From assembly GCA_905182485.1 (NCBI GenBank), contig CAJJBO010000001.1:1-33519 (forward strand): 33,519 nucleotides of DNA, given 5' to 3'. Below the pieces are notes generated by a model, which saw nothing but the letters and a program-made list of their open reading frames with translations, ran no database searches and was not told the DNA's origin. Position numbers and translations under genes: made by a program. Below, in pieces: positions 5,655-29,969 of this stretch. The DNA is from an uncultured Luminiphilus sp. Its GTDB lineage: Bacteria > Pseudomonadota > Gammaproteobacteria > Pseudomonadales > Halieaceae. Position 1 is the stretch's first letter. Every line of letters begins with the position of its first letter.

Positions 5655-6204
5655 GGTGACTCCCAGTGAATGTTATGCTCTTATTACGAATGACGTTATA
5701 TAGGCGCTTGGATTCGATCGTAAATTTTAGTGATGCCTCGCGCGTGTTTTCCCGCTACCTTGTTTCCTTTAATAGGAAGCAGTTCTGGACGCTACCATCA
5801 CGGTAGCGGTGTGCGTGTCGAGCATCCGGCAATGCTGCTTTATTACGAGGCGGCTACCGTCAGGCTTGTCTAAAGCCCCTTTCTTTGAGTCCTTCTCAAC
5901 TTTACTGCCTGTCCCGAGTATCGAGTCAACCTAGAGCTTGCTAGCCGAGTTTTGTGGCGCTTGATGAACCTGATGTGTTGTGCATTGATGTCGCATAGCG
6001 GTGCAAGACAGCAGCTAGTCCCGCCTGTCGTGTCTACCCCTAGCGTCACTGTGTCTTGGGTCGAGCGCTGCGAGGGGTTGCCGACGCCCCTACTGGCAGC
6101 GTCAACCCCTCGTGTGGCAACCCCTCTGGCAGGCTACCCCGCTGTGTGGAGTTGCGTGTGCACGTGTCGCTGCGGGTGTAGGCGTAGGCGCAGGGTGTGC
6201 GCGC
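5655..6204. promoter_or_regulatory. Intergenic region upstream of the TonB receptor, with operator-like repeats
   Basis: There is no convincing gene in these 550 bp. TTGAGTCCTTCTCAACTT at 5885-5902 contains TTGAG-N5-CTCAA and nearly matches 221-238. An inverted repeat CGCTACC-ATCAC-GGTAGCG lies at 5790-5808; on the minus strand it reads CGCTACCGTGATGGTAGCG and resembles CGCTACCGTATGG at 270-282. A third GGCTACCGT is at 5852-5860. The right half (6000-6200) is GC-rich and low in complexity, between the divergent receptor promoter and the 3' end of the oxidase gene. Confidence 0.5.
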
Positions 6205-6891
6205 TTAAGGCGCCGCCCGCTTTGGTTGCGGCGCCGCCGATTCGGCGATGGCATGCTCGCTCCATCGGTGCATCTGTTGGATAGTGGTTCGGTCGATCTT
6301 CCCTTGCTCTTGCAGGCCATCGCACGCCCACGCCAAATTAGCGTCGGCATGTCGCTGCTCGTCTGCTCGCACTCTGACAATGAGATCAGACAGTCGGGCG
6401 TCTCTGTTGCAAGCCGTAGTAGTCGATCGCGAGTTGGGGTGCCGCAATGTTTTCGGCCTCTCCGTCTTCGATAAGCGCCAGTAGCTCGTGTAACTGCGCA
6501 CCGCTTCCTCTTCGAAATAGTGAATCATCTTGTGTGCGGTTTTGGGCGCCAAGACGTACAGCAAGAAGTAATAATTCCAAAAGACCAGCTGGGCAATCAG
6601 GATGAGCGTGCGCTCTAGCCGGCTGGGCTTTGCGATCTCGATGAAAAACATCAGATGCATGCGCTCGTTTTCGGCTTCCGCCAATAACTCTCGGATGAGG
6701 GGCCCGTACCCCGTCTTCATGCTGCGCAAGCTCTTTAGATGGATCCACATTCCTGCAACCATGCCGGGTACGCCAGCAATGGTCTCGAGCACGACAGCGC
6801 GATGCCCATAACGTCTGGCAAAGAAGGTGTCAGCGAAGAACCGAAAGAACGCCGTTTGGCTTCGCGCGAAAAAATCTGATACCGACCCCAT
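6205..6891 (-). CDS. aox: Alternative oxidase (ubiquinol oxidase, non-proton-pumping)
   Basis: This is a membrane-bound di-iron ubiquinol oxidase that reduces oxygen to water without pumping protons, giving resistance to cyanide or nitric oxide. The diagnostic iron-ligand motifs are all present: LETIAGVPGM near residue 37, AENERMHLM, YFEEEAVRSYT and RADEQRHAD. Length 228 residues is normal for proteobacterial members. Residues around 134-160 are out of frame: another frame supplies LALIEDGEAENIAAPQLAI and DYYGLQQ, the expected family sequence. One base is therefore missing near 6490 and one extra near 6400. The start ATG at 6891 precedes SVSDFFARSQ. A perfect inverted repeat lies 43 bp upstream. 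Confidence 0.9.
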   Translation of the reverse strand: MGSVSDFFARSQTAFFRFFADTFFARRYGHRAVVLETIAGVPGMVAGMWIHLKSLRSMKTGYGPLIRELLAEAENERMHLMFFIEIAKPSRLERTLILIAQLVFWNYYFLLYVLAPKTAHKMIHYFEEEAVRSYTSYWRLSKTERPKTLRHPNSRSTTTACNRDARLSDLIVRVRADEQRHADANLAWACDGLQEQGKIDRTTIQQMHRWSEHAIAESAAPQPKRAAP

Positions 6892-6933
6892 TGTCCTAGC
6901 TCACCTGACTCTAGATGGTGGTGCGGGTGGCCA

Positions 6934-6957
6934 CCGCGGGTTTAGAATAACCCGCGG
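6934..6957. promoter_or_regulatory. Inverted repeat upstream of the alternative oxidase
   Basis: CCGCGGGTT (6934-6942) and AACCCGCGG (6949-6957) form perfect 9-bp arms around TAGAAT. A further palindrome, GGTGGCCACC, abuts it at 6926-6935. Position 43-66 bp before the oxidase start suits a regulator site or a 5'-UTR hairpin. There is no T-run, so a terminator is less likely. The rest of 6892-7286 shows no supported gene. Confidence 0.45.
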
Positions 6958-7286
6958 CTCCTGCCATGGGGGCGGCGAATCGGGCACAGTAGCAAACTTT
7001 TTCAGCTGATTCACTTACCTTAGCGCCGTACCGCTGCAATATTTATCGTCCGTCTAAGCAGGCTATTGTCGAGCCGGCAGGCTCGGCCCGCGGGGCCGGT
7101 CTGTCGCCTAACCAATTCCCCTTAGAGGCGCTGTGCTTCATCGGGCGTGGGGGTCCCAGTGGGGCCGTCAGAGGTCGTCGTGAGGGTCGGTAAGGGTCGA
7201 GTGAGGCTCGACTTCAGGGGCGAGGCTGAGCCGCCACGTGAGGGGCACGTCTTCGTCTGCCTGAATGGCCAAACCGGACCCTGCTA

Positions 7287-8423
7287 TCAGTGAATGGGGG
7301 TTAATGCCCCAGCACGTGTCCCAAGGGCGGTCAGAGCATTGCTGGACGTTCACGCGGCTGCTCGCGTGGCCCATCAAACCGATACGCCATTGTTTGCCGG
7401 CCAGATTCGCCAAGTCCTGCGCCAATCTCTAGATTAAATTCGTGTAACAGGCGGCTCGCACGGCTGCATCGTCAATGCCGTCTGGGTATGCAAACGGCGT
7501 TAAGCTGCGGTAATCGCCACTCTGGCGCTACGGCCATGCTTAATCCCATCGCCTCTAGCCCAGAGACCAGTTCAAGATGATTCTCTCGATGCCGCGCAAA
7601 GCTGGCATCGAGGCCTTCCTCTTGCAGGATCAGCAGTGATTCATGGAGTGCATAGAGCGCATTGACCGGCGCTGTGTGGTGGTAGGCTCGCTTAGTGTTG
7701 CCACCCCAATAGCCCATGACAAGTTGCATATCGAGAAACCAGCTTTGCACTTTAGTCGCCTCGGTTTTGAATGCGGGCAACTGCCTTGCGGCTGAATGTC
7801 ATCGGCGACAGGCCGGGCACGCAGGAGAGGCATTTCTGAGTCCCGGAATACACGGCATCGGCGCCCCAGTCGTCAACGCAAAGATCGATGCCTCCGAGGC
7901 TGGTCACGGTATCGACGATCGTCAGCGCGTCATGGCGCTGTGCAAGCTCGCACAGTGTTTTGGCGTCACTGCGCACCCCGGTGGAGGTTTCGGCGTGCAC
8001 GAACGCCAGTAGATTGGCCTCGGGGTGCGCGGCAAAGGCTTCTTCTACCTTCTGCGGATCAACGGGATCTCCCCATCGATCCTGCACCATCACGGCGTGA
8101 GCGCCGCAACGCTCTACGTTCTCCTTCATGCGACCACCGAACACTCCGTTTTGACAGACGATGACGGTGTCACCCGGGGAGACCAGATTGACAAAGGCCG
8201 CTTCCATGCCGGCAGAGCCCGGGGCGGATAGGGGAATGGTGAGTTCGTTTTGGGTTTTAAAGGCGTATTGCAGTAGCTGCTTGGTGTCATCCATCAGCTC
8301 GATAAACAGCGGATCAAGGTGACCGATGGTGGGCCGCCCTAGTGCACCCAGTACTCTGGCGGACACGTCTGAAGGGCCAGGCCCCATTAAAATGCGCTGT
8401 GGAGGGTGAAAGCTGTGGCTCAT
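7287..8423 (-). CDS. Class V PLP aminotransferase (alanine/serine-glyoxylate type), frameshifted
   Basis: This is a fold-type I PLP aminotransferase of the alanine-glyoxylate/serine-glyoxylate/serine-pyruvate family. The N-terminal half shows LMGPGPSDVS, GSAGMEAAFVNLVSPGD and HAETSTGV. SGTQKCLSCVPGLSP carries the PLP lysine and precedes the middle part with GNTKRAYHHTAPV. The C-terminal part shows NLEIGAGLGE, WRIGLMGHASS and VSNALTALGTRAGALTPIH before a TGA at 7289-7287. Frame changes occur near 7760, 7495, 7430 and 7345. Full length is about 378 residues, as expected. I use the ATG at 8423 (SHSFHPPQR) because the frame upstream to 8492 does not look like family sequence. The gene is monocistronic as far as visible. 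Confidence 0.85.
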
Positions 8424-17061: not shown

Positions 17062-18482
17062 ATGTCTGCATTGCCAGACATGAGTGCTAGCAGCGTCACC
17101 GTCATTGGGGATGTCATGTTAGATCGATTTTGGACGGGCGCGACCCAGCGTATGAGTCCAGAAGCGCCTGTGCCGGTAGTCAATGTGTCTTCGCAGGAAG
17201 ACCGTGCTGGCGGCGCGGGAAACGTCGCTGTTAATTTGGCGCAGCTCGGGTTGACTGTCTCGCTGGTGGGGCTATGCGGTGATGATGACCATGCTCGTGC
17301 CCTGCGTCGCTGTGTCGAAGAGGCGGGGGTTCGCTGGAACGTCATGCCGTGTGCTGCCGAGACCATCGTCAAATTACGTGTGTTGAGTCGCAACCAGCAG
17401 CTGTTGCGTTGGATTTTGAGCAGTCACTGATAAATTATGCCAATGACTTATTTGTGGGTTTTGCACAGCAGCATTTGGTCGGGGCAGACTTGGTCGTGTT
17501 TAGCGATTACGCCAAGGGATCGCTTGCGCTGATTGAGTCTTTGATCGCGCGGTGTCGATCTTTAGGTAAAACGACCTTGGTCGACCCAAAAGGGCATGAA
17601 TTTGAGCGTTATCGAGGGGCGACGGTGTTAACCCCTAATCTCACTGAGCTCGAAGCCGTGGTGGGGCCTTGCCAGGATGACGCGACACTCATCGCAAAAG
17701 CAGAGACCCTAAGAAGCTCCCTCGAGTTAGAAGCGATTTTGGTGACACGAAGCGAAGCCGGCATGACATTAATTCAGGCGGGGTCAGCGCCGCAGCACTT
17801 TGCCGCCAGCGCACAAGAGGTTTTTGATGTGACGGGTGCCGGCGATACGGTGATCGCGACGTTGGCGGGGTGTCTCAGTGCAGGACTGCCGATGGCCGAG
17901 GCCGCGGGGATCGCTAATGGTGCTGCAGGTGTGGTGGTGGCCAAGTTAGGAACATCGAGCGTGACGCCCGATGAATTAACCAAGGTCGCCGAGGGGTTGC
18001 GCGGTGCTCCGGAGAGACTGGGTGTCGTATCGGCATCTGACATGTTGGACGTGGTGGCAGAGGCGCGTGGGAGGGGGCAGCGCGTCGTCATGACTAACGG
18101 CTGTTTTGATTTGCTTCATCCTGGTCATATTGCTTATCTAGAGCAAGCGGCAACCTTGGGTGACATGCTGGTGGTCGCTGTGAACGACGATGATTCAGTG
18201 CGCCGGTTGAAGGGCGACGCCCGGCCAGTGAATGCCATTACAGACCGGATGGCTGTGCTCGTGGGCCTCTCGGCGGTGGATTATGTACTGCCATTCTCCG
18301 AGGACACACCGGCAAAATTGATTGAGGCGTTGGCGCCAGATGTGCTGGTCAAAGGCGGGGATTATATTGTCGAGGAAATCGCTGGCCATGAGTCAGTAAT
18401 GGCGCGAGGTGGAGAGGTGGTCGTACTTGATTTTCTAGAGGGGCACTCAACCTCAAGCTTAATAGACCGGCTTAGTGACTGA
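17062..18482 (+). CDS. hldE: Bifunctional heptose-7-phosphate kinase / heptose-1-phosphate adenylyltransferase, frameshifted once
   Basis: HldE phosphorylates D-glycero-D-manno-heptose 7-phosphate at C1, and after GmhB action transfers AMP to make ADP-heptose. The N-terminal ribokinase-like domain shows VIGDVMLDRFW, GGAGNVAVNLAQLG and DVTGAGDTVIATLA. The C-terminal nucleotidyltransferase shows MTNGCFDLLHPGHIAYLEQA and VKGGDY. The start ATG at 17062 has GGGAG upstream. The frame changes near 17405-17410: the first frame stops at 17430, while the next continues LDFEQSLINYAND. Corrected length is about 473 residues, close to E. coli HldE. No slippery heptamer is seen there, so a sequencing error is more likely than programmed frameshifting. 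Confidence 0.93.
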
Positions 18483-18611
18483 ACGACGTTGTCTTTAGAA
18501 ATCGGCGTGTGCGTTGCGCTAACAGTTTTTTACTCAGTTGAATGGCCTGCTTTTAAAGGCCCCAGCACCGCCTCATTGTAAGCGGGTGTTTGCCAAAAAA
18601 GGAACGATCAT

Positions 18612-18821
18612 TTGTCTCAGCCTAGCCGAGAAGAATCAGATCAGTATTGGCGAGACAGTTTTTATTGGCGCGAACCCTTCGCATTGCCCAATCGGCTTGC
18701 CGGACCGCAATCACGACGAATGCGCTACCGCCCCTGTGAGCCACCGCGGCCGTTGGCGCTAGGGACAATTGCCTCTGCTGCTGATCGATCGATTCGAGTG
18801 GGGTCGAGATCGCATGCCTGA
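18612..18821 (+). CDS. Doubtful small ORF before the MFS gene
   Basis: A TTG-initiated frame of 69 codons contains aromatic- and proline-rich segments (QYWRDSFYWREPFALPNRL, YRPCEPPRPLALG). It overlaps the MFS start by eight bases. I do not recognise it; there is no clear ribosome site. The 331-bp gap 18483-18813 otherwise holds only the operon's promoter region and a weak GGCCT/AGGCC hairpin near 18543. It may be noncoding. Confidence 0.18.
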   Translation: MSQPSREESDQYWRDSFYWREPFALPNRLAGPQSRRMRYRPCEPPRPLALGTIASAADRSIRVGSRSHA

Positions 18822-20061
18822 TTCGCCAAAAGGTAAGTGGCTATTACTGACACTGCTCTGTTTTGCCGGAGCCATGGTGTACACGTTCCCTTTTCTTCGT
18901 TATTCCTACTACGACACCATGAAAGAGGCGCTTGGCGTCACTCATACTCAGATGGGGCTGATGCAGGCGGTCAACGGGGTTGCGGCGACGTTCGGTTACA
19001 TCCCCGGTGGCTGGCTTGCAGATCGGTATTCTCCTAGAAAATTATTGGCGACGTCCCTCATTGTCACGGGGCTGAGTGGGTTTTATTTCTCCACCTTCCC
19101 GTCTTATATAGGGGGGCTGTTTCTGTATGGTTTTTGGGGGGTGAGTACCTTGATCATTTTCTGGGCCCCTTTTATTAAAGCGACCCGCAATTTGGGCCCC
19201 GATGCTGAGCAAGGTCGATTGTTTGGGTTTTTAGAGGGCGGCCGCGGGGTTTTTGGTTTTTTGATCGGTATGTTCACTTTGTTCGTTTTCAAAGAAATGG
19301 GTGAGGGGCCAACCGGCTTGATGTGGGTGATCAATATTTCAGCCGTCGTGACGGTCGCAGCGGGGCTGACCGTTTGGCTGATTTTCGAGGACCCGCCTCA
19401 GGGAACGGCTTCTGAGTCGTTGTTTCAAAACTTTAGCGGGGCCCTCAAAACGCCGCAGGTGTGGGTGATCGGGCTTATTATTTTTTGTGGCTATGGTCTT
19501 TTTGCGAGCCAGAGTTACATTACGCCCTACATGACCGGCGTGATGGGTGCCGTGGTGACCTATGGTGTGCTGATGGGCATTTTGAGAACCTATGGTATTC
19601 AGGCGATTGGCGCGCCGGTCAGCGGTATCGTGGCGGATAAAATCGGGGGGCCAAGTATTGTCATTGGCTTCGCGTTTGCTGTCGCGGCGCTCTGTATGTC
19701 GATACTGCTCATGGTGCCGCCAGAGCTAAAAAACTTAGCGATCGTCTCCAACGTTATGATTGTGCTGGCGCTCTGTGTCTTTGCGCTACGCGGCAATTTT
19801 TATGCGACTTTTTCTGAGTCAAAAATTCCAATGCACACTATGGGGACAGCCGTGGGGGTCGCCTGTTTTGTGGGTTATTTACCCGAGGGGTTCACCTATC
19901 CGATGATCGGCTATTGGTTAGATTCTTACCCGGGCCTGCCCGGCTATCAAATCACCTTTGGCTATATGCTGGTGCTGTCTCTGGTGGGTATCTTAGCCAC
20001 ATTATTCTTGCGGCGTATTAATCGACAGAATGAGTCAGAGGAGTGCTCGCGCGTTGGGTAA
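18814..20061 (+). CDS. MFS transporter, YihN-like
   Basis: This is a twelve-helix major facilitator. The N-terminal half has YIPGGWLADRYSPRKLL (the loop 2-3 motif A region) and AEQGRLFGFLEGGRGVFGF. The latter, with KTPQVWVIGLI and YGVLMGILRTYGIQAIGAPV, matches the YihN branch of the family. I use the ATG at 18814; a longer frame to 18769 adds non-membrane residues without support. Length is about 415 residues. It is the first gene of a dense catabolic operon and probably imports the operon's substrate. The 3' end overlaps the dioxygenase gene by 32 bases. Confidence 0.88.
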   Translation: MPDSPKGKWLLLTLLCFAGAMVYTFPFLRYSYYDTMKEALGVTHTQMGLMQAVNGVAATFGYIPGGWLADRYSPRKLLATSLIVTGLSGFYFSTFPSYIGGLFLYGFWGVSTLIIFWAPFIKATRNLGPDAEQGRLFGFLEGGRGVFGFLIGMFTLFVFKEMGEGPTGLMWVINISAVVTVAAGLTVWLIFEDPPQGTASESLFQNFSGALKTPQVWVIGLIIFCGYGLFASQSYITPYMTGVMGAVVTYGVLMGILRTYGIQAIGAPVSGIVADKIGGPSIVIGFAFAVAALCMSILLMVPPELKNLAIVSNVMIVLALCVFALRGNFYATFSESKIPMHTMGTAVGVACFVGYLPEGFTYPMIGYWLDSYPGLPGYQITFGYMLVLSLVGILATLFLRRINRQNESEECSRVG

Positions 20062-20884
20062 AGTACTGTCTGATGCGCAGATCAGGCGCTATCGAGAGGC
20101 GGGTTTTGTCTCGCCTGTCGACGTGATGAGTGAGCAGGAAGCCAGTCAGTATTTGCACCGTTTTGAAGAGGCTGAGCGACGCTTTCCGGCGCTCGCGCAT
20201 GCCCATAAGCGCAATAATGTGCACCTGTCTTTTAAGTGTCTCGACGAATTAGCACACCATCGGGTCATCTTAGACGCCGTTGAAGATCTTATCGGCGCTC
20301 ATTTCTCGTTGTGGGCGACGGTTCTGTTCTGTAAGGAGCCCCAGAGCCCGCATTATGTGAGCTGGCATCAAGATGCCACTTACATGGGAATGAATGACAC
20401 TGAATTCGTGACGCCTTGGTTGGCACTGACGCCCAGCACCCTGACGACGGGCTGTATGCAAATGATTCCAGGATCACATCAGCACGCCATCCTTGAGCAT
20501 GAGGATACGTATGCGGAGGACAATATACTGACGCGTGGCCAAGTGGCAAAGGGGATTGACGAGACCATCGCCGTTGATTTGGTGCTTAAACCCGGGCAAA
20601 TGTCATTGCACCATGCCAAGGTCGTCCATGGCTCAAGGCCTAATACCTCGGCGCAGAGGCGAGTTGGGTTTGCCATGCAGTCTTATATGCCGCCACAAGT
20701 CCAGCAGGTTGTGGGTGACAATCTCTGGCTGGATATTCGGGGTGTCAACGACCGTCAAAATAGCCGCCGGCTGCATCGACCCGAATATGATGCCGATCCC
20801 ATTTCGGCCGCTGACCGCGATCTGGCAGATGCCAATTTAGACGACATCCTGTACCGTGGAGCGGCGCAGAAAAGAGGTTACTGA
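20030..20884 (+). CDS. Phytanoyl-CoA dioxygenase (PhyH) family Fe(II)/2-oxoglutarate oxygenase
   Basis: This is a probable Fe(II)/2-oxoglutarate-dependent hydroxylase. The iron triad is visible: HxD in SWHQDATYMG near residue 117 and the distal His in HHAKVVHGSRPNTS near 200. The 2-oxoglutarate-binding Arg is in AQRRVGFAMQSY. Other family features are WLALTPSTLTTGCMQMIPGS and LKPGQMSLHH. It is 284 residues and intact. Ectoine hydroxylase belongs to this superfamily, but so do many natural-product enzymes, so the substrate is open. Its start lies inside the MFS gene and the next gene begins five bases after its stop. In this operon it may hydroxylate the imported compound before hydrolysis. 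Confidence 0.88.
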   Translation: MSQRSARALGKVLSDAQIRRYREAGFVSPVDVMSEQEASQYLHRFEEAERRFPALAHAHKRNNVHLSFKCLDELAHHRVILDAVEDLIGAHFSLWATVLFCKEPQSPHYVSWHQDATYMGMNDTEFVTPWLALTPSTLTTGCMQMIPGSHQHAILEHEDTYAEDNILTRGQVAKGIDETIAVDLVLKPGQMSLHHAKVVHGSRPNTSAQRRVGFAMQSYMPPQVQQVVGDNLWLDIRGVNDRQNSRRLHRPEYDADPISAADRDLADANLDDILYRGAAQKRGY

Positions 20885-20888
20885 GTCC

Positions 20889-22055
20889 GTGTCGAACGCA
20901 TTAGAACCTGCCCTTGATATTTCCAAGCTGGTGGCTTGGCGCCACGCATTGCATCGCTGTCCTGAGCTTGGGTTTGAGCTCAATGAAACGGCAGGCTATA
21001 TCGAGCGTCAATTGCGGGAACTGGGTATCGAAACCCATAGCGAGATCGGGCGGGTCGGTCTCGTTGGTGTGCTGCGCAAGGGGGATAGCAATCGGGCAAT
21101 TGGTCTTCGCGCAGACATGGACGCGCTCAAGATACAAGAGCTCAATACTTTCGAGTATCGCTCGAAGACAGAAGGCCACATGCATGCCTGTGGGCATGAT
21201 GGGCACAGTGCCATGCTGTTAGGCGCGGCAGAGGCACTGCGCTCACTGGATTTCGACGGTACCGTTTATTTTGTCTTTCAACCAAACGAGGAGCACGGGC
21301 TCGGCGCGCAGGCCATGATTGATGATGGTTTGTTCGATCGATTTCCCATGGACGCTATTTATGGCATGCACAATATGCCCGGGCGCCCGGCAGGGCAGTT
21401 GGCGATGAAGCCAGGCGGTATTATGGCCGGCGAGGACAATTTTAGTCTGACGATCGTGGGGCGGGGTGGGCACGCGTCTCAACCACATCAGCATATCGAT
21501 CCGCTTGTCATCGGTGCAGAGATCATTTTGGCGATACAAAGTATTGTGGCGCGGTCGATTGATCCAGCCGAGCAAGCCGTTGTTTCCGTGACCGAAATAG
21601 AAGCTGATGGGACCGTTAATGTGGTGCCCAGTATCGTCACGATAAAAGGGGACTGTCGAAGCTTTAAACGCGGCGTGAGTGAAACGATCGAGCGTCGATT
21701 GGGTGAGCTCGCGCAAGGGATCTGTCATGCCCATGGTGCCGAGCTTCGTTTCTCGTACCGGCGTGTCTTTCACGCCACGACCAATCACCCGGCGGAGACC
21801 GAGCATGCGCTCGCCGCGGCGCAAGCCACCAATCCCGCTGAGCTCGTTGAGTATCCGTGCCACCCCATGACGGCTTCTGATGACTTCGCTCACATGCTGC
21901 TTGAGAAGGAGGGGGCCTATGTCTTCATCGGCAACGGCTCCGATAGTGTAGGCGGCTGTGCGCTGCACAATCCGCACTACGACTTTAACGATGAGATACT
22001 GGCCACGGGTGTAAGGTTCTGGATTAATCTCGTGCAGCAACAGCTGTCTTCCTGA
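20889..22055 (+). CDS. M20 family amidohydrolase (hippurate/N-acyl-amino-acid hydrolase type)
   Basis: This is a metal-dependent amidohydrolase of the M20D type that cleaves N-acyl groups from amino acids. Features are RHALHRCPELGFE at the N-terminus, LRADMDAL, the metal-binding HACGHDGHSAMLLGAA, FQPNEEHGLGAQAMIDDG with the catalytic Glu, GMHNMPG, and the dimerisation segment GRGGHASQPHQHIDP. The C-terminal metal His lies in CALHNPHYDFNDE. I choose GTG 20889, just after the dioxygenase stop; the same frame is open from 20856. About 388 residues, intact. It would release a free amino acid for the lyase that follows ten bases downstream. Confidence 0.9.
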   Translation: MSNALEPALDISKLVAWRHALHRCPELGFELNETAGYIERQLRELGIETHSEIGRVGLVGVLRKGDSNRAIGLRADMDALKIQELNTFEYRSKTEGHMHACGHDGHSAMLLGAAEALRSLDFDGTVYFVFQPNEEHGLGAQAMIDDGLFDRFPMDAIYGMHNMPGRPAGQLAMKPGGIMAGEDNFSLTIVGRGGHASQPHQHIDPLVIGAEIILAIQSIVARSIDPAEQAVVSVTEIEADGTVNVVPSIVTIKGDCRSFKRGVSETIERRLGELAQGICHAHGAELRFSYRRVFHATTNHPAETEHALAAAQATNPAELVEYPCHPMTASDDFAHMLLEKEGAYVFIGNGSDSVGGCALHNPHYDFNDEILATGVRFWINLVQQQLSS

Positions 22056-22065
22056 GTACGCGATC

Positions 22066-23195
22066 TTGACCGCTCCCTACTCCCATACAAACCATTTCCA
22101 CAACACGGAGCAGAGTAATGATATCGGGGCGACTGTGGATGCCTTGTTCTCAATTGACGACTGCGCCACTGCCTATTCAACGATTCGCCAGTGGCCGGCC
22201 TATCAGGCGACGCCGCTGATTAGTATGACGGATATCGCGGCAGCGGCGGGTGTTAACACGGTCTATTACAAAGACGAATCGAGTCGTTTCGGTCTGGGGT
22301 CGTTCAAGGCGCTAGGGGGCTCTTACGCGATAGAGTGCCTGTCGCAGGACTCATCCCGTGGTGATTTGGTGGTCTGTACCGCGACCGATGGCAATCATGG
22401 CCGCGCGGTCGCCTGGGGGGCGAGCTTGTGCGGCGCCGAATGCCATGTCTTTATCCACGCGAATGTCAGTGAGGCGCGTGCTCAAGCGATCGCTTTGCTG
22501 GGTGCTGTGATTCATCGTGTCGAAGGCAATTATGATGATTCGATCGCTGCCTGTAACGAGCAGGCCGCGTTACACGGTTGGCAGATTGTGTCTGATACGT
22601 CTTGGGAGGGGTATCGCGATATTCCCAAGATGATCATGGCGGGTTACTCGGTGATGACCTTTGAGATGATGGATCAACTCGATGGAGAGATACCGAGTCA
22701 TGTCATTCTTCAGGCGGGTTGCGGCGCGATGGCGGGCGCGTTGACCGACCCGGTGTGGCATCACTGGGGTGCTCGGCTTCCCACCATTATTATGGTGGAG
22801 TCTGATCGATCAGATTGTGTCTATCAAAGCCTGAAGCGGGACGAGATTCATTTGGTCAACATTGTCGAAGAAACCGTAATGGCAGGACTGTCTTGTGGCG
22901 AGGTGTCTTTGCTCGCATGGCCGCTCATTCAAAAGGGAGCCTCACATGTCGTCACCATTCCTGACGCGGGGGTCGGTCCGATGGTGCGCTGGTTAGCCAA
23001 CCCCAGTGACGGTGAGAGACCGAGCGTCATCGGGGGAGAGTGCTCGGCGTCTGGTCTCATTGCTCTGTTAGCGATTCAACATGATCCAGCGCTTGCTCAT
23101 GACATGGGCATCGTCAGCGACGCCGGGTCTGGTGATCGGACGAGGGCAATACCGACGCTGAGCTGTATGACAACATCATCGCAGGCGCGCTATGA
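22066..23195 (+). CDS. Diaminopropionate ammonia-lyase-like PLP enzyme, frameshifted near the 3' end
   Basis: This is a fold-type II PLP lyase. The sequence YYKDESSRFGLGSFKALGGS, with the PLP lysine in SFKALGG, is diagnostic for 2,3-diaminopropionate ammonia-lyase. Other family features are ATDGNHGRAVAWGA, QIVSDTSWEGYRDIPK and GCGAMAGAL. The first frame continues wrongly past 23130. The expected end DEGNTDAELYDNIIAGAL appears in another frame and stops at TGA 23193-23195, after one indel near 23135-23140. That stop overlaps ATG 23192 of the next gene. The start is uncertain (TTG 22066 is the longest). Related lyases also act on other beta- or gamma-substituted amino acids, so the exact substrate is not fixed. 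Confidence 0.85.
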
Positions 23196-23903
23196 ACGCG
23201 GCTACGAGCTTACTCCCGCGGAGCGATCTGATCAGTTGGGCATGATTGTGCTGCATCTGATGTACGATCGAGATGAGTTCAGATGTATTTTGCCGACGCG
23301 ACGGTGAGTCTGCTGCGTGAATCGTATTCCATTCGAAACGAGGTCACCGCTGAAACGCTGGCGGGTATGGCGCACGACCTCAAGCAAGCCGCTGCGCTGT
23401 TCCCATTAACCCACTCATTTGACGCGATGGGGTATGCCTGCACTTCTGGTGCGATGCAAATTGGTTCGGCACGTGTGAGTGAGCTGATTAATAGCGAGCG
23501 CCCCTGTGACTATGTCAGTAATCCGATGCAAGCGGCACTGCTGGCATTTGAGCAGCTTGGTGCAAAGATTGGCTACATTGGCCCTTACTCGAAGCAGGTC
23601 TGTCAGACCATGATCGACCATATTGAGGCTGGTGGATTTACCGTATCGCATGCGGTGAGTTTTGATGAGGAGCATGATGAGTATGTGGGCCGTATTGCGC
23701 CGGAGTCGATTTATGACACGGCGATGGCGCTTGCTGCAGAGGCGGGGCAGTCCATTGACGCTATTTTTATTGCGTGCACCAATATGAAGTGCGCCAGTGT
23801 TTTAGATAAAATCACCGCCGAGAGTGGAGTGCCGGCACTGTCGAGTAACAAAGTGCTCGCGTGGGATTTAGCGCGATCGTCGGGAATTCCTTTCTCTTTG
23901 TAG
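23192..23903 (+). CDS. Asp/Glu racemase / maleate isomerase superfamily protein, frameshifted at its 5' end
   Basis: The clear part (23283-23903) carries the two-cysteine layout of the Asp/Glu racemase, maleate isomerase and arylmalonate decarboxylase superfamily. MGYACTSGAMQIGS holds the first Cys and FIACTNMKC the second; IGYIGPYSKQV and VPALSSNKVLAWDLAR are also family-like. The N-terminus is split by about three frame changes. The frame with YELTPAERSDQLGMIVLH and DEFRCILP is followed by DATVSLLR, then by NEVTAETLAGMAHDL. The start is probably ATG 23192 (ATGA overlap with the lyase stop), giving about 236 residues. EutA of ectoine-utilisation loci belongs to this superfamily. Reaction not determinable from the sequence. 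Confidence 0.78.
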
Positions 23904-23921
23904 TGGTTGGTAGGAGTCGGT

Positions 23922-25109
23922 ATGTCAAAGGTGCCTTCTAGGGGCTTTAGTCGTGACGAATTTATGGCGCGACTCGCAGCAATTCAGGCTCAAATGGCGT
24001 TGCAGGACATAGGTGGACTACTACTCACCACTGAGAGCGATATTTTTTATTTTACCGGCTTTTTGAGCCAATTCTGGCAAAGCCCTACGCGCCCCTGGTT
24101 CGTTGTCATTCCTGCCGCTGGCTCGCCCATTGCGGTCATTCCCGAAATCGGGGTGAATGCGATGACGAGTGAGTTCATGACCGATATCCGCAGCTGGGCG
24201 TCTCCCCATGCCACCGATGATGGGGTCTCTCTATTGGCGGAAACCGTACTGGAGGTGTTGGCTCAATCTCAGTCGTGCACGTTGGGGATAAACAAAGGGC
24301 GCGAGACACAGATCCGCATGCCCATGAATGATTTCGAGTCGCTTATGGATCGACTCAGGGGGAGTGTTACTGGTTTGTGTGTGGTAGATGCGACACCTGC
24401 GATTCAGGCCGTGCGAATGCTGAAGTCCGAGGCAGAAATCGACAAGATTCGATATGTCGCCGAATGCGTATCAGGCGTCTTCGACCGTTTATTCGCTTTT
24501 GCGGAGGTCGGTATGAGTGATGCTGACCTGTTTAGGCGTTTTACGATCGAGTGCTTACATGCGGGTGTCGATACCGTGTCTTACCTAGTGGGTGGCGCGG
24601 GGCAGCACGGCTACGACGATATTATTTCGCCTCCTTCAGGGCGTCGCCTGAGCACAGAGGATGTGTTGATCTTTGATACCGGCTGCACTTTCGACGGTTA
24701 TTTTTGCGATTTTGATCGAAATTATGGTTTTGGCGGGGTGAATGATTTGGCCAAGGAGGCGCATCACTCAGTCTGGCAGGCCACTGAAGCGGGGCTCAAG
24801 GCAGCAGTGCCGGGTAATACCTGCGCTCAAGTATTCGGTGCCATGCATGAAGTGCTAATGAATGCTGGTGCGATGGGCGAAACGGTAGGGCGTTACGGGC
24901 ATGGATTAGGGATTCAACTGACCGAGCCGCCCTCGTTCACGCCCTGGGAGAATACGATTTTGCGTGAGGGCATGGTGATGACGCTGGAGCCAGGTATGGT
25001 GTATGCGCCAGGCAAAATGATGGTGCACGAGGAAAATATTGTGATTCGTCGCGACGGCCCCGAGCTGTTATCGCGCCGAGCACCGCCAGAATTGCCGGTC
25101 AAGCAGTGA
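23922..25109 (+). CDS. M24 family metallohydrolase (Xaa-Pro peptidase/creatinase/ectoine-hydrolase fold)
   Basis: This is a pita-bread-fold hydrolase. All five metal ligands typical of M24 are visible: Asp in IFDTG, Asp in FCDFDRN, His in RYGHGLGIQ, Glu in TLEPGM and Glu in VHEENIVI. The N-terminal creatinase-like domain shows GLLLTTESDIFYFTGFLSQF. The ATG at 23922 has GGAG seven bases upstream and is preferred to TTG 23907. It has 395 residues and is intact. DoeA/EutD ectoine hydrolases and creatinases share this fold, so it may hydrolyse a small C-N bond rather than a peptide. Its stop overlaps the next start (TGATG). Confidence 0.88.
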   Translation: MSKVPSRGFSRDEFMARLAAIQAQMALQDIGGLLLTTESDIFYFTGFLSQFWQSPTRPWFVVIPAAGSPIAVIPEIGVNAMTSEFMTDIRSWASPHATDDGVSLLAETVLEVLAQSQSCTLGINKGRETQIRMPMNDFESLMDRLRGSVTGLCVVDATPAIQAVRMLKSEAEIDKIRYVAECVSGVFDRLFAFAEVGMSDADLFRRFTIECLHAGVDTVSYLVGGAGQHGYDDIISPPSGRRLSTEDVLIFDTGCTFDGYFCDFDRNYGFGGVNDLAKEAHHSVWQATEAGLKAAVPGNTCAQVFGAMHEVLMNAGAMGETVGRYGHGLGIQLTEPPSFTPWENTILREGMVMTLEPGMVYAPGKMMVHEENIVIRRDGPELLSRRAPPELPVKQ

Positions 25110-27583
25110 TGACACAAAGGCCAACAGCTACCTCTGCGGGAAAAGTGCTGCCCAAGCATGCGCGGGTCGTGATCATCGGCGGCGGCATCTTGGGTTGTTC
25201 CGTTGCGTATCACCTCGGCAAGTTGGGTTGGCGCGATATTGTCTTGCTGGAGCAGGGGCAGCTGACCTGCGGCACCACCTGGCACGCCGCTGGGCTGGTG
25301 GGGCAACTCCACGGCAGTCACGCCAGCACAGAATTTGCGAAATACACCGTTGAGTTGCTCAACACCATTGAGGCTGAGACAGGCCAGGATCCGGGCTATC
25401 GAGAATCAGGCTCTATTTCTATTGCTACGAATCCGGAACGTTTGGCTGAGCTGAAAAGAAAAGCAGACTTTGCCTCGCTCTTTGACATCGAGGCACATTA
25501 TTTATCGCCTCAAGAAATAGAGCGCTACTGGCCGTTAATGAATCCAGAGGGGGTGTTGGGTGGCATATTAATGCCCAAAGACGGATCCGCTAACCCGATT
25601 GACCTCACCATGGCGCTGGCAAAAGGGGCGCGGGATTTGGCGCAGTTATTGGAAGGGGTTCAGGTTCAGCAAGTACTGGTTGAGGGTGCGCGTGCAGTCG
25701 GGGTTGCCACCGACCAGGGCACCATCACGGCGGAGGTGGTCGTTAATTGCGGCGGCATGTGGGCGCGCGCATTGGGGCAGCGGCATAATGTGGGGGTTCC
25801 ACTGCACGCCTGCGAGCACTATTACTTGGTGACAGAGCCCATCGACGCCTTGCCTCGTGATTTACCAGTGCTCCGTTCTTATTGTGACGGCACGTATTTT
25901 AAGGAGGATGCCGGCAAACTGTTGTTTGGATTTGCCCATCATCACGCCAAGCCATGGGCTACTGCCGGCATACCTGAGCCGTTTTCGTTCGAATCGTTGC
26001 CCTTTATTGAAGACGATGTCATGGACGTGATCGAGATGGCGATGAAGCGAGTGCCATTGCTGGAGGAAGTTGGTATTCGCACCTTTTTTAATGGACCCGA
26101 AAGCTATTCTTATGATGGGCAGTTCACACTGGGCACGGCTCCCGATTTGAGCAATTACTTTATGCTAGCGGGGCTGAACTCTACGGGGATACAAACTGGT
26201 CCCGGTGCAGGTAGGGCGTTGGCAGAATGGATTGTTAATGGCTATCCGACCCTCGATCTCAGTGGGATGGATCCGGCTCGGTGCGAGCCATTTCAGGCCC
26301 GAGATCGGTACTTGCAAGCACGATGTCCAGAGACGTTGGTGCGAACCTACGCGATGCATTGGCCGAATTATCAGCGGGAAACAGCAAGAAATATTAGGCG
26401 TTCACCTTTTTACCATAGCTTGAGAGAGCAAGGCGCCTGCTTTACTGAGACACAGGGCTGGGAGCGTCCAGGTTGGTATGCACCCGAGGGTGTAGCGCCG
26501 CAGTATGAGTATAGCTTTGGTCGCCAAAACTGGTTTGAGTATGCCCTCGATGAGCAGCGCGCTGCGCGAGAGAGGGTGGCTATTGTCGACTACTCAATGC
26601 TGGGCAAGATCAGTGTGGAAGGATCGGGAGCCGAGGCCTTTCTGCAAAGGGTGTGTACGAATAACGTGGCGATGTCATGTGGTCGTATTGCCTACACGCT
26701 CTTACTCAACGAGCGAGGCGGTATTGAGAGCGATGTGACGGTCGCGCGTTACGCGAATGACCGCTACATGGTGATGAGCTCTATTGCGCGCACCCGAAGG
26801 GACTATTTATGGTTGGCCTCTCTTATTGAGCCTGAAGAACAGGTCAGACTCCGCGACGAGACAGCATCGCTGGGTGTGCTGGGTGTGATGGGTCCACAAA
26901 GCCGAGCACTCATGGCGGCCGTGACTGAGTTGGATGTCTCGAATGAGGCCTTTCCGTTCAATCGCTTTTGCGACTGCCACATTGGTCACGCGGAGGTCAC
27001 GGCGCAGCGGTTGTCGTACTCGGGTGAGTTGGGTTGGGAAATAATGGTAACCCCAGATTTTGCTGAACACGTTTTGGATGTCTTGCTGTCAGCGGGAGCG
27101 CCTTTGGGCGTCAAGCTGCTCGGTTCAGAGGCGCTCAATGCCTTGCGAATAGAAAAAGGGTTTCTGCATTGGGGGCATGACATGGCCTACACAGAATCGC
27201 CCCATCAAGTCGGGCTGGACTTTACCTGCAAGACCGACAAGTCCCCTGCGTTCATCGGCCGAGCCGCCTACTTGCAACGTAAAGCAGAAGCGAGCGGCCC
27301 GTATCTTTGCGCGGTGAGACTTAAGGACTCGACGCCGCTGATGCACCACAATGAGCCGGTGCTTCGGGATGGTCTGGTAGTGGGTTATGTCACCTCAGGC
27401 GCTTTTTCTGCACACTTTCATTGTGCGGTGGGCTTGTGTTTTATCGATTTGCCTGCCGGTGCACAAGGCAAAGCGGCGATCGCATCGGGGGAGTATGCGG
27501 TCATGATCGAGGGCGAACCGATAGCGGCCGAAGTGAGTGTGCAGCCGTTTTACGACCCCCTTAATGAACGGATGCTGTCCTGA
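25109..27583 (+). CDS. Dimethylglycine/sarcosine dehydrogenase-like FAD enzyme with GcvT C-terminal domains
   Basis: This is a two-part oxidoreductase of 824 residues. Residues 1-400 are a DAO-type FAD domain: VVIIGGGILGCSVAYHL near 20-36, and GTTWHAAGL near 55-63, where the His (about 59) matches the covalent-FAD His of mammalian dimethylglycine and sarcosine dehydrogenases. The FAD domain closes with AGLNSTGIQTGPGAGRALAEW. Residues about 430-820 are GCV_T and GCV_T_C folate-binding domains (WFEYALDEQRAARERVAIVD, GVLGVMGPQSR, SGELGWEIMV, EKGFLHWGHDM). Such enzymes remove N-methyl groups and pass the one-carbon unit to tetrahydrofolate. It is intact, and translation is coupled to the M24 gene by TGATG. 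It implies an N-methylated intermediate; the precise substrate is unknown. Confidence 0.9.
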   Translation: MTQRPTATSAGKVLPKHARVVIIGGGILGCSVAYHLGKLGWRDIVLLEQGQLTCGTTWHAAGLVGQLHGSHASTEFAKYTVELLNTIEAETGQDPGYRESGSISIATNPERLAELKRKADFASLFDIEAHYLSPQEIERYWPLMNPEGVLGGILMPKDGSANPIDLTMALAKGARDLAQLLEGVQVQQVLVEGARAVGVATDQGTITAEVVVNCGGMWARALGQRHNVGVPLHACEHYYLVTEPIDALPRDLPVLRSYCDGTYFKEDAGKLLFGFAHHHAKPWATAGIPEPFSFESLPFIEDDVMDVIEMAMKRVPLLEEVGIRTFFNGPESYSYDGQFTLGTAPDLSNYFMLAGLNSTGIQTGPGAGRALAEWIVNGYPTLDLSGMDPARCEPFQARDRYLQARCPETLVRTYAMHWPNYQRETARNIRRSPFYHSLREQGACFTETQGWERPGWYAPEGVAPQYEYSFGRQNWFEYALDEQRAARERVAIVDYSMLGKISVEGSGAEAFLQRVCTNNVAMSCGRIAYTLLLNERGGIESDVTVARYANDRYMVMSSIARTRRDYLWLASLIEPEEQVRLRDETASLGVLGVMGPQSRALMAAVTELDVSNEAFPFNRFCDCHIGHAEVTAQRLSYSGELGWEIMVTPDFAEHVLDVLLSAGAPLGVKLLGSEALNALRIEKGFLHWGHDMAYTESPHQVGLDFTCKTDKSPAFIGRAAYLQRKAEASGPYLCAVRLKDSTPLMHHNEPVLRDGLVVGYVTSGAFSAHFHCAVGLCFIDLPAGAQGKAAIASGEYAVMIEGEPIAAEVSVQPFYDPLNERMLS

Positions 27584-27626
27584 TCAATCCCGCGTCGCGA
27601 CAACGAGTATCGTGCATCACACCGCA

Positions 27627-27656
27627 TTGACGGGGCGAGTGAAGTCGGCATGTGAT
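27627..27656 (+). promoter_or_regulatory. Possible promoter for the cyclase-family gene
   Basis: TTGACG (27627-27632) and TGTGAT (27651-27656) are separated by 18 bp, a fair sigma-70 match. The 156-bp gap 27584-27739 is the longest inside this gene block, so the cyclase gene may have its own promoter. Confidence 0.3.
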
Positions 27657-27739
27657 AGGGCGAGCATCAAGTGTGTTGCCAATGGGGGTGCCCCACTTGT
27701 TATGCTCGTCGCAGACGATAAAGGAAGAGTGAAGCCGTT

Positions 27740-28537
27740 ATGCGCCGATTTATTGATTTGTCGATTTACTTGGAAAACGACGTGCTGAGCGATCCGCCCG
27801 CGATGAAGCCGAATATCGACTACATCCGTCACGATGTGGGTGCGGAGCAAATGGCTTCGTTCTTTCCGGGCTTGGACAGTGCGGCATTGCCGGACGGCGA
27901 GGGCTGGGCCATCGAATTTGTTCAATTGTGCACGCACAATGGTACCCACCTCGATGCGCCGTATCATTTTCATCCCACCATGAACGAGCACACTGGGGGT
28001 AAAGAGCGCGCTATTACCATTGATGAGGTGCCGCTGGAGTGGTGCTTTCAGTCGGGTGTGAAGCTGGACTTTCGCCATTTCCCAGACGGTTACGTTGTGA
28101 CGGCGGGGGACATTGAGGCAGAGCTTGAACAGATTGGCCATACGCTGTCGCCACTGGAAATTGTGTTGGTCAATACCGCAGCGGGCGGTGCCTATGGCGA
28201 TAGTGACTTTGTGAGTCGGGGGTGTGGCGTGGGTTACGAGGGGACGATGTACCTTCTCGAACAGGGCGTCCGCGTGACCGGCACCGACGCCTGGAGTTGG
28301 GATGCACCCTTTGATCAAACAGCGGCTCGATTCGCCGAGACCGGTGATGCGAGTCTCATCTGGGAAGGCCATAAGGCGGGTCGCCATATTGGCTATTGTC
28401 ACTTGGAAAAACTACATAACCTGGAGTCGTTGCCCAGCACTGGCTTCACTATCAGCTGCTTCCCGCATAAAATTCGCGGCGGATCCGCTGGCTGGACGCG
28501 CGCCGTAGCGATTATCGACGACGCATCAGACGGATAG
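27740..28537 (+). CDS. Cyclase-family metal-dependent hydrolase (kynurenine formamidase/isatin hydrolase fold)
   Basis: This is an intact 265-residue protein of the cyclase family. The metal-binding motif HNGTHLDAPYHFHP (HxGTHxDxPxH) lies near residues 72-85, preceded by the typical N-terminus RRFIDLSIYLENDV. Enzymes with this fold hydrolyse small amides or ring-opened products (kynurenine formamide, isatin). In context it may hydrolyse a cyclic or formylated intermediate of the preceding operon, but it is 156 bp downstream and may be separate. Its 3' end overlaps the end of the convergent photolyase gene by 12 bases. Confidence 0.85.
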   Translation: MRRFIDLSIYLENDVLSDPPAMKPNIDYIRHDVGAEQMASFFPGLDSAALPDGEGWAIEFVQLCTHNGTHLDAPYHFHPTMNEHTGGKERAITIDEVPLEWCFQSGVKLDFRHFPDGYVVTAGDIEAELEQIGHTLSPLEIVLVNTAAGGAYGDSDFVSRGCGVGYEGTMYLLEQGVRVTGTDAWSWDAPFDQTAARFAETGDASLIWEGHKAGRHIGYCHLEKLHNLESLPSTGFTISCFPHKIRGGSAGWTRAVAIIDDASDG

Positions 28538-29969
28538 GGTTTTCAGCGTGGCGTAAGCCCCCAACGCGGCTTCCCTCGCGGTTTTGTGATCCACAATGGG
28601 TGAGGGGTAGTTTTCTCCCAGCGACACACCTGCTTCGGCGAGCACCTCCGCTGGCGCCTCCCAGGGTTTGTGTAAAAACTTATCGGGGAGTGACTGTAAC
28701 TCAGGCACCCACTGGCGCGTGTAGGCACCGGCCTTATCAAACTTCTCGCCCTGTGCGATGGGGTTGAAGATCCGAAAATAGGGCGCTGCATCGCAACCAC
28801 ATCCTGCTGCCCCACTGCCAGCCGCACGCATTGGAGGCAAGATCGGCATCGAGGAGGCAATCCCAGAACCACGATTCACCCTCGCGCCAGTGGAGCAACA
28901 AGTGCTTCGTCAAAAACGACGCCACCACCATGCGCACTCGGTTATGCATAAAGCCCGTGGCCCAGAGCTGACGCATGCCCGCATCGACAATAGGATAGCC
29001 CGTTTGTCCGCGCTGCCACGCTGTGAGGCGCTGCTGATCAGTACCCCAAGGGAAGTAGGAAAACTTCGGATTAAACGCCTCATCGGGCATGGTAGGAAAG
29101 TGAAAGAGTAGGTGATAGCAGAATTCACGCCATCCGACTTCGCTGAGAAACTTATCGGTTGCGCTACTTGCCTCGGGCTCAAAGACCTTACTCGCTTGCG
29201 CTGCGTGCCAGACTTGTCGCGGAGAGAGGTTGCCGAAGCGGAGGTAGGGTGATAGTCGAGACGTGCTGCGCGCTGAAGGGATGTCTCGGCCATCACCGTA
29301 GTCGATCACATGATGGGCCAAAAATTGTTCCAATGCTGCGTGCGCACCGTCCTCACCGGGACGCCACAGATCCTCCCACCCCTGCGCCCAGTTTGGCTGT
29401 GTGGGGAGCAGATTCCACGAGTCGAGCGTCTCAGACTGCACGGGTGTCGGGCAGGGAGAGAGTGTGGGTGTGGCCAATGGCATCTGTGGTTCTGGACGCC
29501 GTAAACACGCCCGCCAAAAAGGGGTAAAGACTTTAAACGGTGTGCCAGCGCCCGTGGCGACGGCTTCTGGCTCATGGAGTAGTGTCCCCGGATACCGCTT
29601 AAACTCAACATCGTGTTGACTCAAGCTGTCACGCAGGGATTGCTCTAATTGCCCCGCCCATGGCTGATACTGGCGGCTACAGTAGACCGCTTTGGCGTTC
29701 ACTGAGCGACAGACATCCTCTAGCACGGTGGCCGTGTTGCCTGATCGTAGCGTCAATGGGATGCCTTGCTCATTCAGTGCTGCCTCGAGCGCAGCGAGGC
29801 TCTTGTGGAGCCACCATCGACTGGCACTCCCTATGCGCCACTCCTCACTGACCTTTTCATCCCAGATATAAAGCGCCACGACCGGGCCGCGCTCAGCAGC
29901 CGCGGACAATCCAGCCAGGTCGTTGAGGCGCAAATCATCCCGAAACCAATAAACAGCGATATCAGACAT
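28526..29969 (-). CDS. phrB: Deoxyribodipyrimidine photolyase (class I), frameshifted once
   Basis: The enzyme uses blue light and FADH to split cyclobutane pyrimidine dimers. The N-terminal antenna domain begins IAVYWFRDDLRLND. The FAD domain shows TSRLSPYLRFGNLSPRQVW, GWREFCYHLLF, TGYPIVDAGMRQLWATGFMH and NRVRMVVASFLTKHLL. After ASNACGWQW the frame changes at a G4 run near 28812-28816, and the other frame continues AGCGCDAAPYFRIFNP and ends LKTLSV at 28526. Corrected length is about 480 residues, normal. The start ATG at 29969 lies eight bases inside the sirtuin gene. It is part of the light-stress block. Confidence 0.93.

Follow-up and report, generated by a model that had tools for sequence, protein, structure and literature searches.

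The window analysed here (33,519 nucleotides; contig C1 of a 69.6% complete, 2.17 Mb draft genome of an uncultured Luminiphilus sp. of the Halieaceae) carries an operon of seven genes that we read, at a probability of about 0.6, as a horizontally acquired catabolic unit, the core of which works like the degradation of ectoine and hydroxyectoine on another small zwitterionic solute. The genes encode a major facilitator superfamily (MFS) importer, a PhyH-family oxygenase, an M20 amidohydrolase, a pyridoxal phosphate (PLP) lyase, a EutA-like protein, an M24 hydrolase and a relative of dimethylglycine dehydrogenase (DMGDH). Four of them (M24, M20, EutA-like and the lyase, which resembles diaminopropionate ammonia-lyase, DAPAL) constitute a recurrent core cassette in many ocean bacteria. 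On the best reading, the cassette is catabolic, runs parallel to ectoine breakdown and would serve a zwitterionic solute of amide type; the version in the window adds an oxygenase and an N-demethylase module.

The operon and its limits

The operon unit consists of seven genes (MFS-PhyH-M20-PLP-EutA-M24-DMGDH, 18814-27583) and is followed by a resident gene:

18814..20061, plus strand: MFS-family importer, 415 aa (PF07690, 1.3e-25)
20030..20884, plus strand: PhyH-family Fe(II)/2-oxoglutarate oxygenase, 284 aa (PF05721)
20856..22055, plus strand: M20 amidohydrolase / N-acyl-amino-acid deacylase, 399 aa (Peptidase_M20, TIGR01891)
22066..23195 (end approximate, placed by the frame that holds the C-terminal motif), plus strand: DAPAL-like PLP enzyme (PALP, PRK08206)
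23192..23903 (start approximate, by the L044 start codon), plus strand: EutA-like protein of Asp/Glu-racemase fold (Amdase, TIGR02990)
23907..25109, plus strand: M24 metal-dependent hydrolase of prolidase/dipeptidase type, 400 aa (PF00557 + PF01321)
25106..27583, plus strand: DMGDH-like FAD dehydrogenase fused to a GcvT-type folate domain, 825 aa (PF01266, PF16350, PF01571, PF08669)
27740..28537, plus strand: cyclase-family hydrolase, resident neighbour outside the operon (follows hldE at 7/7 operon-free same-genus sites)

An earlier, sequence-only reading had named eight families here, all of which Pfam confirmed in place (MFS_1, PhyH, Peptidase_M20, PALP, Amdase, Creatinase_N + Peptidase_M24, DAO/FAO_M/GCV_T/GCV_T_C and Cyclase; the EutA-like protein matches Amdase, with Asp_Glu_race below its Pfam cut-off). 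The dense plus-strand operon that it described holds for seven genes that overlap or lie no more than 10 bp apart (MFS/PhyH overlap 32 bp, PhyH/M20 overlap 29 bp, M20/PLP gap 10 bp, EutA-like/M24 gap 3 bp, M24/DMGDH overlap 4 bp), but the limits of the PLP and EutA-like genes were wrong. The MFS start at 18814 agrees with relatives, and 156 bp separate the DMGDH and cyclase genes. A scan for promoters and terminators was uninformative: it gave 8 sites resembling promoters where 7.0 were expected, and 13 resembling terminators where 11.0 were expected. No tandem repeats were found.

The open reading frames (ORFs) of the PLP and EutA-like genes as read, 22066-23307 and 23283-23903, are not the true gene limits, and the C-terminus of the lyase and the N-terminal part of the EutA-like protein sit in other frames of the window. 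In a Luminiphilus relative (L044) both genes are intact (5757-6890 and 6887-7615) and overlap by 4 bp, and several small length differences between the two sequences at this boundary account for the distorted ORFs; the PLP/racemase overlap reported earlier is not supported. Because the upstream hldE gene (17062-18482; PfkB plus cytidylyltransferase in L044), a single frame in most relatives found, is split into two overlapping ORFs as well, sequence or assembly error is more likely than decay. The hldE of L044 recurs at 100% identity in the same-genus genome G399. The photolyase ORF at 28737-29969 (410 aa versus 480 aa in L044) probably holds a further frameshift, and the DMGDH-like gene of another genome (G413, L155 4395-6878), which reads as two ORFs of 370 and 438 aa, may be frameshifted.

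Genomic site and probable horizontal transfer

The cyclase-family hydrolase, taken earlier for a member of the pathway, belongs to the resident sequence. We compared eight same-genus hldE sites, chosen from 43 genomes with an hldE match. At one of them (L162 in G402) hldE is followed by MFS, PhyH and M20; the remaining sites (L156-L161, L163), seven in number, have both hldE and the cyclase gene with none of the seven operon genes in between, and the cyclase gene is therefore a neighbour rather than an operon member. The photolyase gene adjoins the cyclase gene at 6 of these 7 sites (the contig of L160 ends within the cyclase gene). One genome (G390) has all seven genes plus a second PhyH on another contig (L154), and its own hldE-cyclase site (L161) is empty. 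From these sites it follows that the mobile unit comprises MFS to DMGDH. At four of the sites (L156, L158, L160, L163) two ORFs of about 410-480 aa, by eye secreted-amidohydrolase-like, lie between hldE and the cyclase gene, the place of the operon in the window.

Among 140 genomes of the family, a window-type M24 (E 1e-60 or better) occurs in 5, which belong to a single genus and include that of the window. The seven-gene order is kept in L044, in G390 and in the alphaproteobacterium Hellea (L046), where identities to the window proteins are 64-80% (the Hellea contig stops within DMGDH, and its M20 ORF has only 305 aa, 136 of them aligned). In Arenicella (L047), a gammaproteobacterium of another order, six of the seven genes are found, with PhyH and MFS divergent and no adjacent DMGDH. 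Gene order is thus conserved across two bacterial classes and at two sites within one genus. The shared order in Hellea, the patchy spread in the family and the Arenicella variant fit an operon that was acquired horizontally and moves as a block. The blocks of G390 and Hellea start with an extra, different PhyH (27-28%) which the window lacks, and a PhyH of 28-29% identity adjoins EutA in L101 and L119.

The core cassette in other bacteria

An M24 alignment was used to fetch the best 80 of 582 confirmed relatives in named genomes, and 6.5 kb were examined at each locus (some contigs end within this distance). Neighbours played no part in the choice of loci; they were identified by their resemblance to the proteins of the window, which misses more distant equivalents. 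Rows with DMGDH below 60% identity, PLP below 100 bits or PhyH below 50 bits were dropped before counting. The PLP lyase was found near 63 of the 80 M24 loci, the EutA-like gene near 58, M20 near 32, and all three near 28. DMGDH at 60% identity or more is present at 6 of the 80. An Lrp/AsnC cluster (one member identified by Pfam) accompanies 25 of the loci.

The M24 loci include those of Leisingera, Ruegeria, Shimia, Thalassovita and Roseobacter sp. MED193, and the gene is carried by 29 plasmid records, including those of Phaeobacter, Roseovarius, Aliiroseovarius, Vibrio, Photobacterium and Rhizobium. In Roseovarius pelagicus both strands of a stretch of about 8 kb encode the five enzymes DMGDH (70%), EutA-like, M20, DAPAL-like and M24, and Ehu-type permease and binding-protein, Lrp and GntR genes stand alongside them within about 10 kb. 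Two further loci (L064 and L073) share this gene set, with the Ehu-type binding protein and permease 63-86% identical (L064 is without M20). In four rhizobial plasmid cassettes a Zn-dependent hydrolase gene stands in the run of lyase and M24 genes; the one scored is of carbamoylase type.

Several other arrangements were seen near these loci. On the rhizobial plasmids (L136, L139, L140, L141) Lrp, DAPAL-like, M24, amino-acid ABC and Zn-dependent hydrolase genes stand in a row, with nitrile hydratase genes nearby in all except L141. L073 has a second, distant trio of M24, EutA-like and FAD-oxidoreductase genes (17516-20728; 25%, 28% and 25%) about 6 kb from the first cassette, possibly a paralogous pathway, and in L082, L083 and L100 a second M24 (23-24%) lies four genes downstream of the cassette.

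The M24 hydrolase and ectoine degradation

The M24 protein is not EutD. Residues D257, D268, H332, E361, E375 and E376 are invariant in 23 sequences, and the corresponding columns of four canonical EutDs (L124-L127) read E, P, Y, M, T and E: five metal ligands (D257, D268, H332, E361, E375) are kept in the window protein and lost in the EutDs, and only the E376 column is E in both. Conservation of D268 and E375/E376 in the 80 loci is partly by construction, because the patterns used to fetch them contain these residues (D257, H332 and E361 lie outside); the plasmid rows of the 23-sequence alignment were found by tblastn without patterns. Retention of ligands that the EutDs have lost points to metal-dependent hydrolysis of an amide or imide bond, which weakens the ring opening previously proposed by analogy to EutD. 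The EutD model TIGR02993 gave 65 bits (58.6 in the genome search) against a cut-off of 613. Among solved structures the AlphaFold model (mean pLDDT, the per-residue confidence score, 81.7; below 50 at 327-346, the stretch that holds H332) comes closest to PepE and Xaa-Pro dipeptidases; EutD ranks 10th. Assignment as an ectoine hydrolase was rejected on the scores, the kept metal ligands and the coexistence with EutD-type genes.

Creatine breakdown resembles the operon in that an M24 gene directly precedes a DMGDH-type gene. Creatinase is not known to have the metal centre, and as an identity for the window M24 it was rejected (creatinase 1chm 38.6 bits versus 115.9 for PepE; best creatinase at Foldseek rank 34).

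The likeness to ectoine utilisation (eut/doe, with Ehu or Ueh uptake) lies in the adjoining M24-fold hydrolase, N-deacylase, PALP-fold enzyme and EutA-fold protein, in the Lrp/AsnC regulator and in Ehu-, TRAP- or BCCT-type uptake genes near some cassettes; the kinship noted earlier therefore stands, with DoeB2 and EutA as the best NCBIfam names. In contrast to eut/doe, the window M24 is of metal type and far below the EutD score, the deacylase is M20 and not EutE/DoeB, the lyase is DAPAL-like and not EutB, and DMGDH and PhyH are added. EutE/DoeB, EutC, Atf and Ssd are not among the Pfam families of the operon, in line with the replacement of EutC and EutE/DoeB stated before. Judged by its model scores and gene content, the cassette is no member of the eut/doe ectoine pathway, though it would work like it. 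In 30 cassette genomes, hand-picked from the 80 loci, a EutD above 500 bits is also present in 23 (10 of them above the curated cut-off; seven genomes are without). In five genomes of the window's genus, its own among them, no EutD above the cut-off was found (the top score was 58.6 bits, and three of these genomes are less than 90% complete). The cassette is thus accompanied by a EutD-type gene in most of the 30 genomes surveyed and seems to stand alone in the window's genus.

The lyase and the EutA-like protein

The lyase, the ORF of which is frameshifted at its C-terminus, scored 370.1 bits with PRK08206 (cut-off 276), as a diaminopropionate ammonia-lyase should, and 259.9 bits with the stricter DAPAL model TIGR03528 (cut-off 532.25). 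It matches the solved DAPAL 4d9g at 5.6e-60, and its TDGNHG and SDTSWEGY align with TDGNHG and QDTAWEGY of 4d9g; we take the two Asp in these motifs to be residues 120 and 189 of E. coli DAPAL, which abstract the proton from the D and L isomers. The DAPAL motif ATDGNH is kept by 51 of the 63 lyases found at the M24 loci. Lyases of the PALP fold need a substrate whose beta carbon bears a hydroxyl or an amino group. A RidA gene adjoins the lyase gene in Vibrio cortegadensis, which is consistent with release of a reactive enamine. SPO2196 of Ruegeria pomeroyi is annotated as diaminopropionate ammonia-lyase in what appears to be a table of predicted small-RNA targets (PMC4809877).

A DAPAL-type lyase next to an M20 hydrolase is also the arrangement of YgeX and YgeY, which belong to anaerobic urate use. 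The window M20 differs in being DoeB2/YxeP-like (YgeY model 20.2 bits only), and the operon has no transcarbamoylase but has M24, EutA-like and DMGDH genes.

The EutA-like protein scored 103.9 bits with TIGR02990 on the truncated ORF and 103 on the six-frame translation, below the cut-off of 318. Its C53 and C165 (numbering of the ORF as read) are invariant in 8 sequences and in a second set of 8 (the sets share one gene, L101 being the same as L022); two conserved cysteines are typical of racemases and isomerases of this fold. A second, weaker EutA-family match (48 bits) lies on another contig of the window genome (G000:C7:94312-94950).

Predicted importer, oxygenase, deacylase and demethylase

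The MFS protein is 91% identical to that of L044, 72% to that of Hellea and 53% to that of Arenicella. In PhyH the iron triad H113, D115 and H200 is invariant in 7 sequences, and the best solved relative (135 bits) is 6zyk/6zyl, presumably ThoJ. For TsaJ, a ThoJ homologue, PMC8153245 describes beta-hydroxylation with preference for a bis-methylated histidine substrate. ThoJ-type oxygenases differ from the role proposed here in tailoring ribosomally synthesized and post-translationally modified peptides rather than serving catabolism. Plasmid-borne PhyH relatives (7 records, 35-43% identity) had no cassette genes in the two neighbourhoods read (L150 and L151).

The M20 protein scored 308 bits with TIGR01891 (cut-off 153.75) and 318.9 bits with the DoeB2 model NF038260, its best NCBIfam name (cut-off 550). 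Its metal motifs are kept in 7 of 7 aligned sequences, and its relatives include an N-acyl-glutamine aminoacylase.

The last protein of the operon shares the FAD plus GcvT architecture of dimethylglycine and sarcosine dehydrogenases (DAO + FAO_M + GcvT + GcvT_C at 25106-27583; match to solved DMGDH 4p9s at 2.5e-131), which bears out the N-demethylase-type addition proposed before. It differs from them in forming a separate clade, in which cassette relatives are 68-89% identical versus 44-48% for ordinary paralogues. Among 15 cassette genomes, hand-picked from the 80 loci, 5 (all of the DMGDH-bearing type) have such a 68-89% relative and the other 10 reach at most 48%. In the class sample 2 of 274 genomes pass a threshold of 1e-280, the window genome and G190 (locus L022, itself a cassette variant).

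Transporters and substrate class

The transporter search used only proteins of L101, L134, L135, L136, L138, L142 and L144. Ehu-type uptake genes stand beside L142, L064 and L073 (and beside L144, a locus with no lyase or EutA-like gene close by), OpuAC-type ABC genes beside L090, L101 and L119, TRAP genes beside Photobacterium L134 and L065, L092 and L097, and a BCCT gene beside the cassette of Vibrio cortegadensis (L135). ABC, BCCT and TRAP systems are described as ectoine importers in a review (PMC5924519). The Ehu-like binding protein of L142 scored 178.5 bits with TIGR02995, just below the EhuB cut-off of 190.9, and its EhuC permease 244.6 bits, above the cut-off of 196.95. The binding protein has Ile in place of an EhuB Glu, presumably a residue that binds ectoine, and its ligand is therefore probably not ectoine. 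The Ehu, OpuAC, TRAP and BCCT neighbours together with the altered binding protein suggest a zwitterionic solute that resembles ectoine, yet is not ectoine.

Proposed pathway and alternative explanations

In the order of reactions that we infer, the MFS protein would import the solute, PhyH would hydroxylate it and/or perform a first oxidative demethylation, and the FAD/GcvT enzyme would move N-methyl groups onto tetrahydrofolate. The two-metal centre of M24 would then split an amide or imide bond, M20 would take off an N-acyl group and the EutA-like enzyme would invert a stereocentre, whereupon the lyase would act on the amino acid set free, one resembling 2,3-diaminopropionate, and by eliminating ammonia (or water) yield a 2-oxo acid (e.g., pyruvate) and ammonia. 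A more specific form of this proposal, offered tentatively and not probable as it stands, is a new pathway, widespread in marine alpha- and gammaproteobacteria, in which a diaminopropionate-type solute with N-methyl and N-acyl groups would be broken down to pyruvate, ammonia and one-carbon units and a metal-type M24 would stand in for EutD. In line with the sequence-only reading, which knew of no such pathway, no description of the gene set was found among the top-ranked matches in one library of open-access papers; overall, the observation of that reading is partly confirmed and its interpretation partly supported.

Several results weigh against a catabolic cassette of this kind for an ectoine-like solute, among them the Ile of the Ehu-like binding protein. 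M20 was not recognised near 48 of the 80 loci, 9 lack M20, PLP and EutA-like genes alike, and among 12 plasmid neighbourhoods read the PLP lyase was present at 9 and the EutA-like gene at only 4. A close transporter relative (at least 55%) lies within 6.5 kb at only 8 of the 80 (2 Ehu, 3 TRAP, 3 OpuAC), with weaker transporter matches only at 16 and none at 56, and the importer of the window itself is an MFS protein, which carries little information on the substrate. The chemistry of the lyase may vary across cassettes, because its motif at the 63 M24 loci reads ATDGNH in 51, ASAGNH in 10 and ATAGNH in 2. Finally, a 57% DMGDH relative in Sinorhizobium chiapasense stands away from any cassette gene; two genes that we read by eye as electron transfer flavoprotein subunits adjoin it.

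A divergent ectoine/5-hydroxyectoine pathway, with M24 as EutD, M20 as DoeB2, the PLP enzyme as EutB and the EutA-like protein as EutA, is unlikely. The parallel gene set, the NCBIfam names, the Lrp/AsnC cluster at 25 of the 80 loci and the Ehu-, TRAP- and BCCT-type transporters that adjoin some cassettes speak for it. It falls short in the model scores (EutD 65 versus 613, EutA 103.9 versus 318, DoeB2 319 versus 550 bits), in the metal ligands, in the separate EutD that most of the surveyed carriers possess, and in the missing EutC, Atf and Ssd; moreover, ectoine has no N-methyl group to offer to DMGDH. Also in its favour, a 2026 paper (PMC13188858) reports putative ectoine clusters of Gram-positive bacteria that include an amidohydrolase and a further eutD homologue, in some cases together with an 'MSF' transporter.

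A further alternative is scavenging of an N-acylated dipeptide or peptide-like amide with an N-methylated amino acid, in which a prolidase-like M24 cuts a tertiary amide, DMGDH demethylates the N-methyl amino acid set free and M20 deacylates the rest. The metal-type M24 is structurally nearest to dipeptidases and Xaa-Pro dipeptidases, its gene overlaps that of DMGDH by 4 bp, and an N-acyl-glutamine aminoacylase is among the M20 relatives. At a greater distance, L137 and L142 have putative peptide importers, ABC transporters whose binding proteins (about 530 aa) are of the size known from such importers. As this account leaves unexplained both the racemase-fold gene and DAPAL-like lyase of the core and the Ehu, OpuAC and BCCT transporters beside some cassettes, we hold it to be rather improbable.

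We give still less weight to breakdown of carbamoyl-, guanidino- or methyl-bearing derivatives of 2,3-diaminopropionate (albizziine-like or beta-N-methylamino-alanine-like). The lyase passes one DAPAL model (370 versus 276) and keeps both DAPAL Asp motifs, and the Zn-dependent hydrolase of the four rhizobial plasmid cassettes, where scored, is of carbamoylase type; against this, TIGR03528 is missed (259.9 versus 532.25) and the racemase-fold and M24 steps have no clear role. Chance neighbours, or an arrangement of one genome, would agree with the rarity in the family (5 of 140 genomes) but are already contradicted by the linkage counts, which are high at 80 loci selected without regard to what adjoins them. 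The gene order, which two classes share and which recurs at two sites of a single genus, likewise speaks against chance, and this explanation is highly improbable.

The preferred reading, a parallel cassette for a zwitterionic amide-type solute, concerns a wide range of bacteria: the core genes are present in named roseobacters (Leisingera, Ruegeria, Shimia, Phaeobacter, Roseovarius), vibrios and rhizobia, often alongside a canonical-type EutD. Should the compatible solute on which the cassette acts prove to be a different one, M24 genes labelled 'Xaa-Pro peptidase family protein' may carry the wrong name, and a compound of the dissolved-nitrogen pool on which common marine bacteria draw would have escaped notice. 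The existence of cultured carriers makes the question of the substrate directly testable.

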